From: Methanofervidicoccus sp. A16
Lineage (GTDB): Archaea > AGJL01 > Methanococci > Methanococcales > Methanococcaceae
Reading direction: 5' to 3'
NCBI RefSeq assembly: GCF_003351865.1
Contig: NZ_CP022242.1
Span: forward strand, 620,001 to 684,000
DNA length: 64,000 bases
Shown one piece after another: positions 18,321 to 57,859 of the stretch. The notes under the pieces are model-generated. The model saw only the letters and a list, made by a program, of their open reading frames with translations, was not told the DNA's origin and ran no database searches. The stretch's first letter is position 1; each line of letters starts with the position of its first letter. The position numbers and the translations under genes are program-made.

Positions 18321-19511
18321 CTATTCCTCATCCTCTTCGCCGATAAGTTTCTTTAATTCTCTGATTATTATTCTCTTTTCTCTTTCTAGTATTTCTTTTT
18401 CTAATTTTTTAATCTTGATCAGGAGATAGGGAATTTTTATAATGTAGTATATTGTTGCTAAACTGATTATTATTACTACAGGTGATCTCCAGTCCCAGTT
18501 TAAAATTAGGATCAGTATTACCTGGATGAGTATAAGGATGAATATGAGGGTGATGTTTTGTTTGATTTGGTTTTCATATTCTTCGATTTCATTTTTACAT
18601 TGTTTGATTTGGTTTTTCATTTCCAATATTAACATTGCCTGTGGTGAGGCGAAGAGGTAGACATGTTTATCACCACTTCCAGCAACCACATACTCCCCAT
18701 CAGGAGTTATGGAGACTGAGTTAACAATACCATCTGTCTCATACTTCCACAACAACTCTCCTTCTTTGTTGAAGAGGTAGACATGATCATCCCTACTCCC
18801 AGCAACCACATACTCCCCATCAGGAGTTATGGAGACTGAGTTAACAATACTATCTGTCTTATACTTCCACAACAACTCTCCTCTTTTGTTGAAGAGGTAG
18901 ATATAATATCTACTCCCAGCAACCACATACTCCCCATCAGGAGTTATGGAGACTGAGTAAACACTACCTGTCCAATACTTCCACAACAACTCTCCTCTTT
19001 TGTTGAAGAGGTAGATTCTCCATCCACTCCCAGCAACCACATACTCCCCATCAGGAGTTATGGAGACTGAGTAAACACTACCACCTGTCTCATACTTCCA
19101 CAACAACTCTCCTCTTTTGTTGAAGAGGTAGACATATCTCCAACTCCCAGCAACCACATAATCTCCATCAGGAGTTATAGAGACTGAGTAAACCCAACCA
19201 TCTGTCTCATACTTCCACAACAACTCTCCTCTTTTGTTGAAGAGGTAGACATGTTTATCCTCACTCCCAGCAACCACATACTCCCCATCAGGAGTTATGG
19301 AGACTGAGTAAACACTACCACCTGTCTCATACTTCCACAACAACTCTCCTCTTTTGTTGAAGAGGTAGACATACTTACCATACCAACCCCCGCTCCCAGC
19401 AACCACATACTCCCCATCAGGAGTTATGGAGACTGACCATACGCTATCATCTGCCCTATACTTCCACAACATACAATAACCTTCATTCCTCCCATCTCTA
19501 TCAAAATCCAT
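18321..19511 (-). CDS. Seven-repeat beta-propeller protein with C-terminal coiled coil and membrane anchor
   Basis: After a short lead (FDRDGRNEG) the protein has seven repeats of 38-43 residues with the pattern LLWKYETGGSVYSVSITPDG then EYVVAGS..VYLFNKRGE, as in PQQ/WD40-like propellers. Seven units fit one seven-bladed ring. A helix rich in Glu, Lys and Asn follows, then two hydrophobic segments (LIFILILIQVILILIL and PVVIIISLATIYYII) and a charged tail. There is no signal peptide, so the propeller is probably cytoplasmic and tethered to the membrane. The start at 19511 is favoured by GGGGTGAT; ATG 19514 is the alternative. The partner is unknown. Confidence 0.75.
   Translation of the reverse strand: MDFDRDGRNEGYCMLWKYRADDSVWSVSITPDGEYVVAGSGGWYGKYVYLFNKRGELLWKYETGGSVYSVSITPDGEYVVAGSEDKHVYLFNKRGELLWKYETDGWVYSVSITPDGDYVVAGSWRYVYLFNKRGELLWKYETGGSVYSVSITPDGEYVVAGSGWRIYLFNKRGELLWKYWTGSVYSVSITPDGEYVVAGSRYYIYLFNKRGELLWKYKTDSIVNSVSITPDGEYVVAGSRDDHVYLFNKEGELLWKYETDGIVNSVSITPDGEYVVAGSGDKHVYLFASPQAMLILEMKNQIKQCKNEIEEYENQIKQNITLIFILILIQVILILILNWDWRSPVVIIISLATIYYIIKIPYLLIKIKKLEKEILEREKRIIIRELKKLIGEEDEE
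18655..19445 (-). repeat. Tandem coding repeats of 114-129 bp in the propeller gene
   Basis: Seven units differ mainly in short stretches at the blade tips. The block CCCCATCAGGAGTTATGGAG (plus strand) is identical in six of seven units, and the block encoding NKRGELLWKY is nearly so. Identity at synonymous sites points to recent amplification or ongoing gene conversion. Confidence 0.85.
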
Positions 19512-19610
19512 CATATCACCCCACCTAATTAATTATAAATCTAAAAGCAATATTAACTGTTTTCATTATAATAATTATTATTCTAATTTTCATCAAAGTA
19601 ATAATTATTT

Positions 19611-20306
19611 TCATCCCCTAAATTCACCTAACAAACTACCTAACCTCTCAAAATCCTCCTCCCTATGTCCCACATTTATACTAACCCTTATCCTCTCGAG
19701 ACCCTTAGGTACAGAGGGATACCTGATCCCTGGAGCGTATATCCCATTCTTAAGTAGATACTCAGAAACCTCCATAGTTCTATCTCCAAGTATTACAGGA
19801 TATATAGGTGTTAAACTATCCTCCTCAATTAGATTGTACCTCCTAAATATCCTATTTGCACTCCTTATATTCTCCTGTAACTTCTCAGTTAAATGGCCCT
19901 CCTCTATCAACTCTAAACTCTTAAGGGCTCCAGAAACCAGTGAAGGAGGTAGAGCAGTTGAGTATATGAAACTCCTTGAGGTGTTTATTAGGTACTCTAC
20001 CACCTCCTCTATTCCACATACAAAGCCCCCCAACCCCCCAAATGCCTTAGACAGGGTGCCTATCTGGATGATGTTATCTGAAGGTTTTAAGTTGAAGTGT
20101 TTCAAGGTACCTTTACCTTTGCCTAGTACTCCGGTACCGTGGGCATCGTCTACTATAACTACACCGTTGTACTCGTCTGCAATTCTCTTTATGTCCTTCA
20201 GTGGCGCAATATCCCCATCCATGGAGAAGACTCCATCTGTGATAATGAATATATTGTTGTAGTTCTTTACTTTCGCCTCTAGGGTATTTATAAAATGATA
20301 AAAGAA
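19611..20306 (-). pseudogene. bioF: 8-amino-7-oxononanoate synthase, N-terminal part missing
   Basis: BioF makes the first pimeloyl-derived intermediate of biotin. The remaining sequence matches the C-terminal part of the family: IFIITDGVFSMDGDIAPL, VIVDDAHGTG, then GTLSKAFGG with the PLP lysine, and the C-terminal domain. An intact BioF is about 375-390 residues; here the frame is open for about 231 codons. It is closed upstream by TAA at 20307-20309 with no standard start before ATG 20222. The first part (substrate- and glycine-rich region) is gone. The divergent RraA-like gene starts 26 bp beyond. It is probably a decayed gene, unless a short remnant is translated from ATG 20222. Confidence 0.8.
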
Positions 20307-20334
20307 TTAAAATAAAAAATCCCAAACGATCACC

Positions 20335-20916
20335 ATGATGATCCTAAAAGATGTCTCAGTTCCAAACCTCTCTGACGCTGGAGCGAAGGTACTTAAAGGT
20401 ATAAAACCTGTGGATAACATTCGGGGTGTGGTATTTGGAGAGGCCTTTACAGTTAAAACATCTTCAGAGGATTGGGGCACAGTTGTAAAATCTATCTCCT
20501 ACAGTAGGGGGAAAGTTATAGTTGTAGAATGTGAGGGAGAGGAGTGTGCAGTATGGGGAGGTTTAGCCTCATTAAATGCTAAGTTAAAGGGGGTTGTTGC
20601 AGTGGTGATAGATGGTTATGTAAGGGATCTGGAAGACATTAGGAGGATCAGGTTTCCAGTATTCTCAAGGGGATATACACCTAATGCTGGGAGTCCTTTA
20701 GATAGGGGAGTTATGGGAGTACCTGTGAAGTGTGGTGGCACTACTGTAAAACCTGGGGATATAGTAGTTGGAGACTGCAACGGTGTTGTGGTTATAGAGA
20801 GGGAGAGAATTGGGGAAGTGCTTGAGAGGGTTAAGGAGATTAAGAGAAAGGAAGGTAAGATAAGGGATAGGATTATGAGGGGGGTGGATCTAAGGGATAT
20901 TTTGGGATTGGAGTAA
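20335..20916 (+). CDS. RraA family protein (aldolase/decarboxylase-like)
   Basis: The 193-residue protein has the RraA / HMG-CHA aldolase fold motifs: VVIDGYVRD, FSRGYTPN, VPVKCGGTTVKPGDI and GDCNGVVVI. Members act as class II pyruvate aldolases, oxaloacetate decarboxylases or RNase E inhibitors; no RNase E is expected in this archaeon. Two ATGs stand in tandem (20335, 20338) without a GGTGA site, so it may use a very short leader. A TATA-like TTTATAAA at 20287 lies inside the bioF remnant. Confidence 0.8.
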   Translation: MMILKDVSVPNLSDAGAKVLKGIKPVDNIRGVVFGEAFTVKTSSEDWGTVVKSISYSRGKVIVVECEGEECAVWGGLASLNAKLKGVVAVVIDGYVRDLEDIRRIRFPVFSRGYTPNAGSPLDRGVMGVPVKCGGTTVKPGDIVVGDCNGVVVIERERIGEVLERVKEIKRKEGKIRDRIMRGVDLRDILGLE

Positions 20917-21072
20917 AATAATGATAATAAAAATTACCATAAAATGAGATAAAACAAAAAAATAAAAAAATTCCTAAAAAAGGTTTAACAGGAATTTATC
21001 ATACTTTTATACTTTTAAGCACTGCATAATGAAAAATAAAAAGTTAAATCCTAATATTGTAATATATAAAAG

Positions 21073-21382
21073 AACCTTAGTTCCCACCAAGTAGTGATTA
21101 AAAGAACAGTGAAAAATGATAATTATTATAATAAAAATCATAATTAAAATAATCAGTATAAAATCTATATAAATAAAACTATTAAACATTCTAGGATCTT
21201 TCCGAACCCTTAGATAAGATAGGGGATCCTATTCTGAATCCCTATATTAAAAGATATTCAAAGGATCATTTTTCTTCAATCTTCTTTTTAAATTTTTCTG
21301 TTTTTTAAACATTATTCTTTATTTTTTATTTTTATAATTATTTTTATTATTTTTTAAACTATCCTTTTGATGGGAACTAGGG
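21073..21382. mobile_element. MITE-like element, copy A
   Basis: The left end is AACCTTAGTTCCCACCAAG followed by TAGTGATTAAAAG. The right end is TTTTGATGGGAACTAGGG preceded by AAACTATCC, an imperfect inverted copy. ATAAAAG flanks both sides (to 21072 and from about 21384), consistent with a 7-bp target duplication. The interior of about 250 bp is non-coding. The ends match those at 56916-57154 in the opposite orientation. Confidence 0.6.
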
Positions 21383-21607
21383 TATAAAAGATATTAAGAT
21401 CAAAGATAAATAATCCCCCTGGGATGTTATAAGATACTATATATCAAAGAATAATAATGATAATTATGAAAATAATAAGAATAAAAAATAAATGAAAATA
21501 TTCAAAAAAACAAAAAACTTATATCATCTTAGATTACAATTCCCTGATACATAAAAATAAAAAAGGATTTAAGGAGAACGATCCTCTATATAAATCCTCT
21601 ATCTTAT

Positions 21608-21626
21608 CTTGGTGGGGAGTAAGGTT
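21608..21626. repeat. Solo element end
   Basis: CTTGGTGGGGAGTAAGGTT is the reverse complement of the left end of copy A with two differences in 19 bases. Confidence 0.55.
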
Positions 21627-21710: not shown

Positions 21711-21740
21711 CTAATCACTCTCTTGATGAAAACTGAGATA
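21711..21740. repeat. Solo element end, right type
   Basis: The reverse complement reads TATCTCAGTTTTCATCAAGA and continues into AATAATAAAAATAATAATAA. It aligns with the right ends at 21356-21384 and 56916-56947. Confidence 0.45.
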
Positions 21741-21782
21741 AAAAAGTTAAATATAAATCCACCATTGAGACTATTTTTTTTA

Positions 21783-23657
21783 TTAACACTTATATATTAC
21801 CTCCCCACAGTTTGAAGGTTTTTTAAAGGGCAGATCTACTCTCTTCAAGGTTTCAATAAATCTCATAACATCTTCATCCTCTAACTTCTCAGATCTAATA
21901 AGAAAATCATAATGCTCCTCACCTATAGGTATAAACCTCAAGTTATACTGCTTAGCAACAGTTTCAATACCTACCCCTATATCTGCCCTACCTGTGGCAA
22001 CTGCCATTCCAACTGCAGAGTGGGTTTTCGCCTCTATGTTATAACCTTTTATTTTACTCCTATCAATGCCTCTCTCCTTTAGAAATTTATCAAAGAGTAT
22101 CCTTGTACCTGAGCCCTTATTCCTGTTTATAAATTTATATTTATCAATGTTTTCTAAGATATCCTCCAAGGTTTCTAATGGGAGATCCCTTCTAACTATA
22201 AAACCCTGTCTCCTTATATACCCTCTAACAAGTACTGCATCTTTAACATTATATCTCTCTAAGAAGGGGATATTGTACTCCCCATTCTCCCCAAGTAAAT
22301 GTATCCCTGCAATATCTCCCTCACCTCTCTTTATAGACAACAACCCACCTATGGAACCTACGTTGATAGTCTTTGCATAGATGTTACCCTCCCTAAGTAT
22401 AATATCCACACCTATACAGTGACTACCTACTATACTAAGTCCAAACTTTATATTCCCAAAGAGACATACCTCAACAGGCTCGTCCTCCAGTATCTCCTTA
22501 CTCTCCTCTATAACAACGTACCCATCACTGTAAGTTAGGGAGGTAATAGCACCACTACCCTTGAGAATAGGATAAACAGTGTATCCCTCACTACCTCTAA
22601 CTACAGATACAGGTAGATACTCCACCCTCCCCTTTGCAGACATATATCTAAGTGGGAAGTGTCCCCTTATACTCCTCTCCTCCCCTCCAAAGAGTACGTT
22701 AAACACTGTTAAACAGGATGTAGGATAACCTGGAAGTCCTAGAATTAACTTAGGAGTACCATCCCTTCCAGGCACAGTGCCTATTACAGTTGGCTTCCCA
22801 GGTTTTATCTTCATCCCATGGATGTGTATCTCCCCTCCAAGTTTCTCTATTACCTTGGCAGTTAGATCTCCCCTTCCAGCAGAGGTGCCACCACTTAGGA
22901 TCACTATATCGTTGTTATCCTCTATAGTTCTCTTAACAGTTCTTATAAGATCCTCCTCTCTATCCCTTACAATGCCGTAGAATTTGAAATCCCAGCCCCT
23001 CTCCCTTATGGAGGCTGCCAAGGTGTAGGTATTGACGTCGTATATCTTGTAATCCTCCAGAGGTTTTCCAGGATCTATTAACTCATCTCCAGTGGATATC
23101 AACGCTACTCTCAACCTCCTCTTAACCTTTACCCTCCTCCTCCCTATAGCCGCCAATGCTCCAATATCCCTTGGAGACAGTAATGTGCCCCTCCTCAACA
23201 CAAGTTCTCCAGCCATGATGTCGCTACCACAGTACTGTATATTCTCATGGGGTGCAACGCCCTGATATATCTTTACACTGTCTCCATCCCTCTCTGTATA
23301 CTCCACCATAACTACAGCATCACAGCCCTTAGGTATAGGTGCCCCAGTTGCTATCTCCACAGCCTCCCCACTTTTAACCTCAATATTTGGAGAGTCTCCG
23401 GCCCTTATACTCCCAACAACCTTAAGTATCACTGGATTGTCTTCATCAGCCAGATAGGTATCCTCAGATCTAACAGCATAACCATCCATAAGTGCCCTAT
23501 CAAAAGGAGGTACGTCCATCTCTGCAACAACATCCTCTGCCAGTACTCTATTTACAGATTCGAATAGATCTACCTCTTCCCATCCTATTTTCTCCAAGAA
23601 TTTTTTTATTATTTCCTTTCCCTCCTCTATAGTTGAGAGTTTTAAAAACCTCTTAAT
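21783..23657 (-). CDS. moeA: Molybdopterin molybdenumtransferase MoeA fused to a periplasmic-binding-like domain
   Basis: MoeA inserts molybdate or tungstate into molybdopterin. Residues about 20-400 are Moe[23 protein letters not shown] and [12 protein letters not shown]. The last 200 residues are a PBP-like domain ([29 protein letters not shown]), a known archaeal fusion thought to bind the oxyanion. An in-frame TTG at 23597 would cut off the normal start of helix 1. Upstream the frame reads [19 protein letters not shown], as MoeA proteins begin, behind AGGGGGAT. The only codons available there are ATT at 23657 and 23660. An ATT start is therefore proposed; TTG 23597 is the fallback. Confidence 0.85.
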
Positions 23658-31614: not shown

Positions 31615-32356
31615 ATTAAAATATTATAATAATTATAGATAAGAATAAAACAACCTTATTGTAATAATGAAAAACCCTAATTCCCATCAAAGTAGCTGTT
31701 AAAAATATTAAAAATGATAATAGAAAATAATTACAATAAAAAAATCTAATCTAAAAAATAATAACAAAAACACTTTGAAATAAGATGGAAAGTTCTGCTA
31801 TAGTATAAATTCTGTTAGGAAGGATCGCCCTCTTTTCAATATTTCGGAAATAGAGAAAAATCCTCTTGTTTGCACTTCCAAAAATTTGTATCCAAGATAA
31901 ACATAGAGTTTTTTATTTTTATAATCAACCTCTCTATTGTTTTTTATTTTATTTTTTATAATAATCATTTTTTTATAGAATTTTTGTAATGAGAACTAAT
32001 GTAATAAAAAATTAAAAATTGCCGATATAAGAAAATATTAAGTAAAATTCCACCATTATCTTTTCTAGTTTACATAAAACTGTAAAGAAACATGATAAAG
32101 GATTTATTAACTCTTTTATAGTTTTTATTTATTGTTAATTTTTAAATTTAGTAATTAAATAAAAAAGTGGGAAAATATCAACAACAAAAATATATTAACA
32201 ATAAGAATTTATAATCCCCTTGTTAAGAAGGATTCTCTTCACCCTTTTAGTATTGAGAAAATAAAGGAAAATATTCCTATATGAATCTCCAACTGTGTCT
32301 TTAAAATTTATTTTAAATTTTTGATAATAATTTTTATTATTTATTTTAAAAAGTTA
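31615..32356. other. Intergenic region with element copy B
   Basis: These 742 bp are AT-rich with no gene. They hold a degenerate inverted-end element (31673-32005). The remaining stretch toward L10e (32006-32356) shows no clear feature beyond T-rich termination signals. Confidence 0.6.
31673..32005. mobile_element. MITE-like element, copy B (degenerate)
   Basis: The left end is AACCCTAATTCCCATCAAAG followed by TAGCTGTTAAA. The right end, inverted, is GTAATGAGAACTAATGT. Inside, TCTAATCTAAAAA followed by ATAACAAAAACACT recurs almost unchanged in the element at 60721. A GATCGCCC and ATTTCGGAAA core lies centrally. Flanking repeats are not clear. Confidence 0.45.
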
Positions 32357-40629: not shown

Positions 40630-40851
40630 TTTACTTCCCAATTAAAATAGTAATTAAAATAATAATAATTATAATAAAAATCCTAATGAAAAGGACGTTT
40701 TCGAATACTGAAAAATGGGGAGAATCTTACGGTATCAACACCTGTCTAAGATATTTAGGGGACCATCCCTTCAATCTCCTTATAATAAGATTTTACTATC
40801 TCTGTACTAACTCTTTATTAACTATTTCTTGAGGAGAGAGTAACTAAGGTG
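40630..40851. mobile_element. Degenerate MITE-like element between ehbK and ehbL
   Basis: The left end ACTTCCCAATTAAAATAGTA then ATTAAAATAATAATAATTAT resembles other element ends. The right end CTTGAGGAGAGAGTAACTAA with AGGTG resembles the inverted left end CTTGGTGGGAACTAAGGTT. The last bases AAGGTG form the ehbL ribosome binding site. The match is weaker than in copies A and C. Confidence 0.35.
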
Positions 40852-56756: not shown

Positions 56757-57859
56757 TTTCTTAATTTTTTAACTATTTTTAACTGATCTTAGTAGGAATT
56801 AATAGTTGTTAAAAATAGATAAAAGAGTAATTTACCTTTAGTTTCTAATAAAAAAAGTAATTAAAAAAGTTATAGGTATTATAATAATAAAAATCCCATA
56901 TAAAAAATAAATAAAAACCCTAGTTCCCATCAAAAGAGTAGTTTAAAGAATAATAAAAATAATTATAAAGATAATAATTATAAAATAATAAAAATAATAA
57001 AAAGATTTTAAAATAAAAAACTTCTATAATCTCAGATATACCATTTTAAAAAGAAGATTGGAGGAGAATTTCGGAAAGATCTTGGATATTTAATGATTTT
57101 TATATTGATTGTTTTCATTGTCCTTTTAATCACCACTTGGTGGGAACTAAGGTTAAATAAAAAGGAATTGAAGTTATTAACGATATTAATTTTATAAGTG
57201 TCCTGGACTCTAATGGCAGGATTTAGAAATTCTATTTTGATGGAGGATAGCCAACAGTTATGATTTAGAAGATACGTGGAAAAATCTTTTCTTCTTCCAA
57301 CATCAGGATAAAGTAGAAATACTTTTGTGTTTACAGTATTTTAGTATTTTACTTTCAATATTTTTATAAAGTTTTTAAATATAGGTTTAATATTGATTTT
57401 ATTGAGATTTTGGTAACATTTAGGAGCGTATAATTATAATAATTACTAATAAAATTTTAATTAAAATTTAAAAAATAATAAAAAGAAATTAGATACATAA
57501 AAAACTTAATCCTATTGTTATTTTTCCTGAATACTCTAAACACTAAGAAAGTGAGAAATATATTATAATTTTATCATTTTAATTTAAATTTCAAATATTA
57601 ATAACTAAAAAAATATCCAAATATGAAGATTATTAATTAAAAATAAAATTGTTAAAAAATATTAAAAGAGCAATGTAGATAAAAAATATTTAAAATATAA
57701 CTGTTTATTCTTTTTAGAGTATTGTTCTAAACTATTAAAAAGTAGAATAAAGACCTTACTAACTCTTTTTCATTTCACAAATTTTTTCTGATTTTATCAT
57801 GATTTTAATAGAAAATAGATCTATTGTTGTATAAAGTCTCTAATTAATAAGGTGTCATT
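56757..57859. other. Long intergenic region with element copy C
   Basis: These 1103 AT-rich bp have no convincing gene. They contain an inverted-end element (56916-57154) and a core motif (TTTCCTGAATACTCTAAACA, 57523). Confidence 0.65.
56916..57154. mobile_element. MITE-like element, copy C
   Basis: The left end AACCCTAGTTCCCATCAAAA leads into GAGTAGTTTAAAGAATAATA. The right end CACTTGGTGGGAACTAAGGT is its imperfect inverse. The left end matches the right end of copy A and vice versa, so the element is inverted relative to copy A. AAATAAA flanks both sides. A central TTTCGGAAAGATC matches GATCTTTCCGAA in copy A. Confidence 0.6.

Follow-up and report, generated by a model that had tools for sequence, protein, structure and literature searches.

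A large family of MITEs, very probably moved by an IS982-type transposase, in Methanofervidicoccus sp. A16

Introduction

The window analysed here is a stretch of 64,000 nucleotides (positions 620001–684000) from the one-contig, 1,504,113-base genome of Methanofervidicoccus sp. A16. It contains a short stretch of non-coding DNA with inverted ends, here called copy A. A sequence-only reading had described it as a MITE-like element of the window with flanking 7-bp repeats. Is copy A a transposable element, and if so, how large is its family, what moved it and is it still moving?

Results

The boundaries of copy A were set by alignment with its sister copies, and the profile of subfamily F1 matched it across the whole model (nhmmer E=7.8e-82). 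The element and its borders are as follows:

21074–21383, + strand: copy A, a 310-bp MITE of subfamily F1
21066–21073, + strand: left target-site duplication of copy A, ATAAAAGA
21074–21091, + strand: left terminal inverted repeat of copy A, ACCTTAGTTCCCACCAAG
21363–21383, − strand: right terminal inverted repeat of copy A, read inward ACCCTAGTTCCCATCAAAAGG
21384–21391, + strand: right target-site duplication of copy A, ATAAAAGA

The terminal inverted repeats are imperfect (ACCTTAGTTCCCACCAAG versus ACCCTAGTTCCCATCAAAAGG). The sequence-only reading had correctly recognised the inverted ends and the non-coding DNA that they enclose, but placed the left boundary one base off. The sequence AACCTTAGTTCCCACCAAG spans 21073–21091, with its imperfect inverse at 21363–21383, and the element starts at 21074 because the sister-copy alignment assigns the first A of AACCTTAGTTCCCACCAAG to the flank. 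Flanking direct repeats are likewise present, with a length of 8 bp instead of the proposed 7. The longest open stretch in copy A has 51 codons, which marks the element as non-coding.

Two genes face each other around copy A. At 21783–23597 (− strand), a frame of about 604 aa resembles, by eye, a molybdopterin enzyme of the MoeA type with a fused periplasmic-binding-type domain; the gene convergent with it, at 20335–20916, encodes an RraA-like protein, and the two genes nearly abut in relatives. Further along, an aminotransferase-like frame (KBL/BioF type by eye; 19611–20325, − strand) seems to continue upstream in another frame (20113–20325), and is possibly a frameshifted gene or a pseudogene. 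The ORF at 18321–19514 (− strand) encodes 397 aa, with about seven 40-aa repeats (GEYVVAGS...LFNKRGELLWKYETGGSVYSVSITPD) of beta-propeller-like character that correspond to a 120-nt tandem repeat in the DNA, and with a coiled or membrane part at the C-terminus.

Two subfamilies were profiled, F1 with a length of about 310–360 bp and F2 with about 240–260 bp; across the family the elements span 150–410 bp and are non-coding. The window contains further members:

56917–57153, − strand: copy B, a 237-bp MITE of copy A's family in the opposite orientation
56908–56916, + strand: left target-site duplication of copy B, 9 bp, TAAATAAAA
57154–57162, + strand: right target-site duplication of copy B, 9 bp, TAAATAAAA
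21444–21737, − strand: decayed older F1-like copy adjoining copy A (profile E=4e-18), with end remnants at 21608–21626 and about 21722–21746
31674–32002, + strand: diverged copy (profile match), target duplication no longer present
40641–40783, + strand: partial copy remnant (profile E=2.3e-5)

Evidence that these elements have moved comes from target-site duplications and from sites without an element. Exact flanking duplications of at least 7 bp border 29 of 59 paired elements, against about 0.5 expected from swapped flanks. The direct repeats of the family vary in length between 7 and 11 bp, mostly 8–10 bp, and in a larger set (n=98) duplications of 8, 9 and 10 bp were counted at 14, 11 and 7 copies, respectively. 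The 14 exact 8-bp duplications are 96% A+T, and each one is different. In L002 (1505–1832) and L030 (1507–1928), the end of another copy lies within or beside the flank. The common clusters of ends suggest that older copies often serve as targets for insertion.

Empty sites were found in related genomes, with exact base-level junctions blurred by divergence. The genes that flank copy A lie about 3–20 bp apart with no element between them in three relatives (G011, G012 and G018). In the closest relative, G014, the copy A site has diverged and holds a different old element remnant, so that the empty site there is approximate. The element L073 offers a better empty site: its joined flanks align without interruption in G014 and across a gap in G008, and neither genome has the element there. 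In G012 and G018, the two genes that border L058 lie close to each other.

Which enzyme moved the elements? IS982 was first guessed from the ACC ends and then tested by DDE_Tnp_1_3 profile matches in the genomes that carry the family. In related genomes, these matches fall between copies of the MITE ends. G020 holds complete IS982-type ORFs flanked by MITE-type ends (L093, L096 and L099), and G017 a decayed IS982-type gene flanked by such ends and a 7-bp direct repeat (L091); the MITE ends are shared by all of these transposase elements and by L103. On both sides of the IS982 genes in G020 and G017, the 17-base end differs from the degenerate consensus at one position. L103 and L108 of G020, two identical IS982 copies that look intact, have no clean target duplication. 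The transposase of the relatives was assigned to IS982 by NCBIfam NF033520 (E=4.5e-37) with 128 bits against a curated cut-off of 130; the scores of the G020 transposases, 128 and 122 bits, fall slightly short of that cut-off, and the relatives' IS982-type transposase matches Pfam DDE_Tnp_1 above its cut-off. Pieces of a transposase gene also lie between MITE-type ends in G016 (L110 and L118, about 690 bp) and G017 (L119, about 295 bp). These IS982 derivatives may represent stages of the transition from IS to MITE in sister species.

A transposase gene bounded by the ends of copy A is present in related genomes and lacking in this one: the window has none, in agreement with the sequence-only reading, and no intact one with MITE ends was found in the whole genome. 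A profile search of the genome covering PF01609 and PF13612 gave no match to DDE_Tnp_1_3 or to DDE_Tnp_1 (PF01609), and the latter was rejected as the genome's own transposase. The single transposase remnant (217981–218344) contains stops, shares 65% identity with the G017 transposase across 81 aa, directly adjoins the end ACCCTAGTTCTCATTAC and ends in the motif GTAATGAGAACTAGGGT. Profile comparison of the MITEs with IS982 copies revealed likeness at the ends and adjacent bases only, extending over at most about 100 bp, in G016, and no profile match convincingly inside the IS982 transposase gene. The interior of the MITEs would therefore be captured DNA or have aged beyond recognition. Carriage by plasmids or viruses was considered and rejected: there was no DNA match to plasmids, and viral contigs contained neither the end motif nor a relative of the transposase.

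From these sequence comparisons, an IS982-family transposase very probably moved the MITEs. We consider it unlikely that a transposase of another family did so and that IS982 elements merely have similar ends. Such a scenario would accommodate the interiors of the MITEs, which are unlike the IS982 copies, and a genome in which no intact IS982 was found. However, it leaves unexplained why a near-identical 17-base end stands on both sides of the IS982 genes in G020 and G017, and why the only DDE-type trace found in the genome itself belongs to the IS982 clade and ends in the MITE motif. Moreover, the conserved ends of IS982 are described as 5'-AC and its direct repeats as variable (PMC7335449).

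The size of the family was estimated with the F1 and F2 profiles in 20 evenly spaced 20-kb stretches (400 kb), from which totals were extrapolated. The family covers 5.2% of this sample in 63 tracts, with no matches in the reversed-sequence control, and the 51 paired elements counted there correspond, by extrapolation, to about 190 in the genome. A BLAST search with copy A against its own genome returned 101 matches, about 42 of them long. Almost all elements are intergenic, and only 0.08% of element bases in the sample fall inside predicted ORFs. Based on simple ORF calls, 21 tracts lie over the 47 convergent junctions, 29 over the 237 tandem junctions and 8 over the 55 divergent junctions.

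This placement raises the alternative that the copies are a repeat selected for a host function, for example to terminate transcription or bind a protein where genes converge, and not a transposon. Virtual absence from ORFs, the tract counts at convergent junctions and well-kept ends all speak in its favour, and the RNA strand folds better than shuffled sequences (z=-2.6). Yet the fold is a consequence of the inverted ends, selection against insertions that disrupt genes is expected to produce a bias towards intergenic sites, and an Rfam search gave no significant match, which also removed a known RNA family as a candidate identity. Above all, exact, copy-specific target duplications and element-free sites require transposition, and we regard the host-function explanation as very improbable. 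Finally, a chance inverted repeat in AT-rich DNA, although copy A is 78% A+T, is practically inconceivable, as end matches with up to three mismatches number four in the window against 0.02 expected from window shuffles and 184 in the genome against none for the control, and the 17-base end motif ACCYTARTTCCCAYCAA with up to one mismatch occurs 348 times in the genome against none for a control pattern, counts far above chance that had already ruled it out.

Together, the genome-wide end counts, the target duplications and the element-free sites bear out the MITE layout that the sequence-only reading had proposed, and support copy A as a MITE.

Not all members of the family are simple two-ended elements. 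In L021 and L022, an inserted F1 element interrupts an F2 element, at the same internal position in both, while L008 and L012 consist of the left part of an F2 element and a whole F1 element, with duplications at the outermost ends. Among 152 candidate multi-end units, 20 have exact outer duplications of 8–11 bp, against 0.5 expected, which indicates that elements joined to or nested in one another also moved as a whole. Thirteen of these 20 have a single extra internal end and are most plausibly chimeras that transposed as one unit; some of the 20 are older elements that were interrupted later.

The copies have diverged considerably. Among 52 of them, identity to the nearest partner has a median of 86% and a range of 78–89%, and no pair exceeds 89%. 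In the 59-element set, exact duplications are still present in about half of the better-kept copies. With copies 78–89% identical to their nearest partner and about half of the better-kept ones retaining exact duplications, the data fit an old burst, with copies of roughly the same age, after which the family fell inactive; the loss of the transposase agrees with this.

Discussion

We consider it highly likely that the copy A family consists of MITEs that were moved by an IS982-type transposase, multiplied, diversified and then stopped. In the mechanism that we envisage, an IS982-type transposase encoded elsewhere would bind the ACC(T/C)TA(G/A)TTCCCA(C/T)CAA ends, excise or copy the element and join it to AT-rich intergenic DNA. 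Staggered cuts and repair would then leave the 8–10-bp duplications. In this lineage the family would have grown to about 190 recognisable paired elements, or about 5% of the genome, and diversified into at least two subfamilies as well as joined or nested compounds moving as units. Movement would presumably have ended once the autonomous IS982 copies decayed.

More tentatively, and with the balance leaning somewhat against it, end-shuffling may have been the main route by which the family evolved. The transposase would accept any pair of outward-facing ends, and insertions into or beside older copies would create three-ended chimeras, such as an F2 end with a complete F1 element. These chimeras would transpose in their own right and give rise to new subfamilies.

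IS982 elements of Methanococcales and Thermococcales (ISPfu3, ISTli1 and relatives, with members in Methanotorris and Methanocaldococcus) end in a conserved 5'-AC, are flanked by short direct repeats that vary in length and encode a DDE transposase (PMC7335449). The IS982 copies of the relatives have the same 17-base ends as the copy A family. Whereas IS982 elements are about 1 kb long and carry a transposase gene, the copy A family is non-coding and 150–410 bp in length. Among named species genomes, the exact end was found in one Methanothermococcus okinawensis MAG (DQVU01000137.1) and as four isolated matches in unrelated bacteria, which look like chance. The end positions in this MAG coincide with those in G014 contig 87, which by itself places the host very probably within the Methanococcales.

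The overall organisation of the family is reminiscent of MITECca01 from Cardinium cOegib, which derives from ISCca4 of the IS982 family, measures about 240 bp and makes up 3.5% of the chromosome with 169 copies (PMC9769881). Both lack a transposase gene, have IS982-type ends, reach very high copy numbers and are mostly intergenic (PMC9769881). However, MITECca01 resides in a bacterial endosymbiont in which intact copies of the parental IS are still there (PMC9769881), whereas the copy A family has an archaeal host, an estimated load of about 5.2%, a presumed parental IS of which a single remnant is left and no clear IS-derived coding remnant inside its elements. With prokaryotic MITEs in general the family shares short length, non-coding sequence, inverted ends, target duplications and many copies. 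What stands out in the copy A family is how often three-ended compounds moved as single units.

In the open-licence literature, we found no IS982-type MITE from an archaeon. The copy A family thus adds a heavily amplified archaeal case to a known kind of element, the IS982-type MITE. A MITE load of about 5% of a small genome appears unusually heavy for an archaeon, and an otherwise unexplained 5% of this genome is now tied to a named transposase family. The family has been caught after its transposase all but vanished, and its nested, chimeric and single copies with readable duplications are good material for placing the burst in time and for tests of how non-autonomous elements give rise to further ones.
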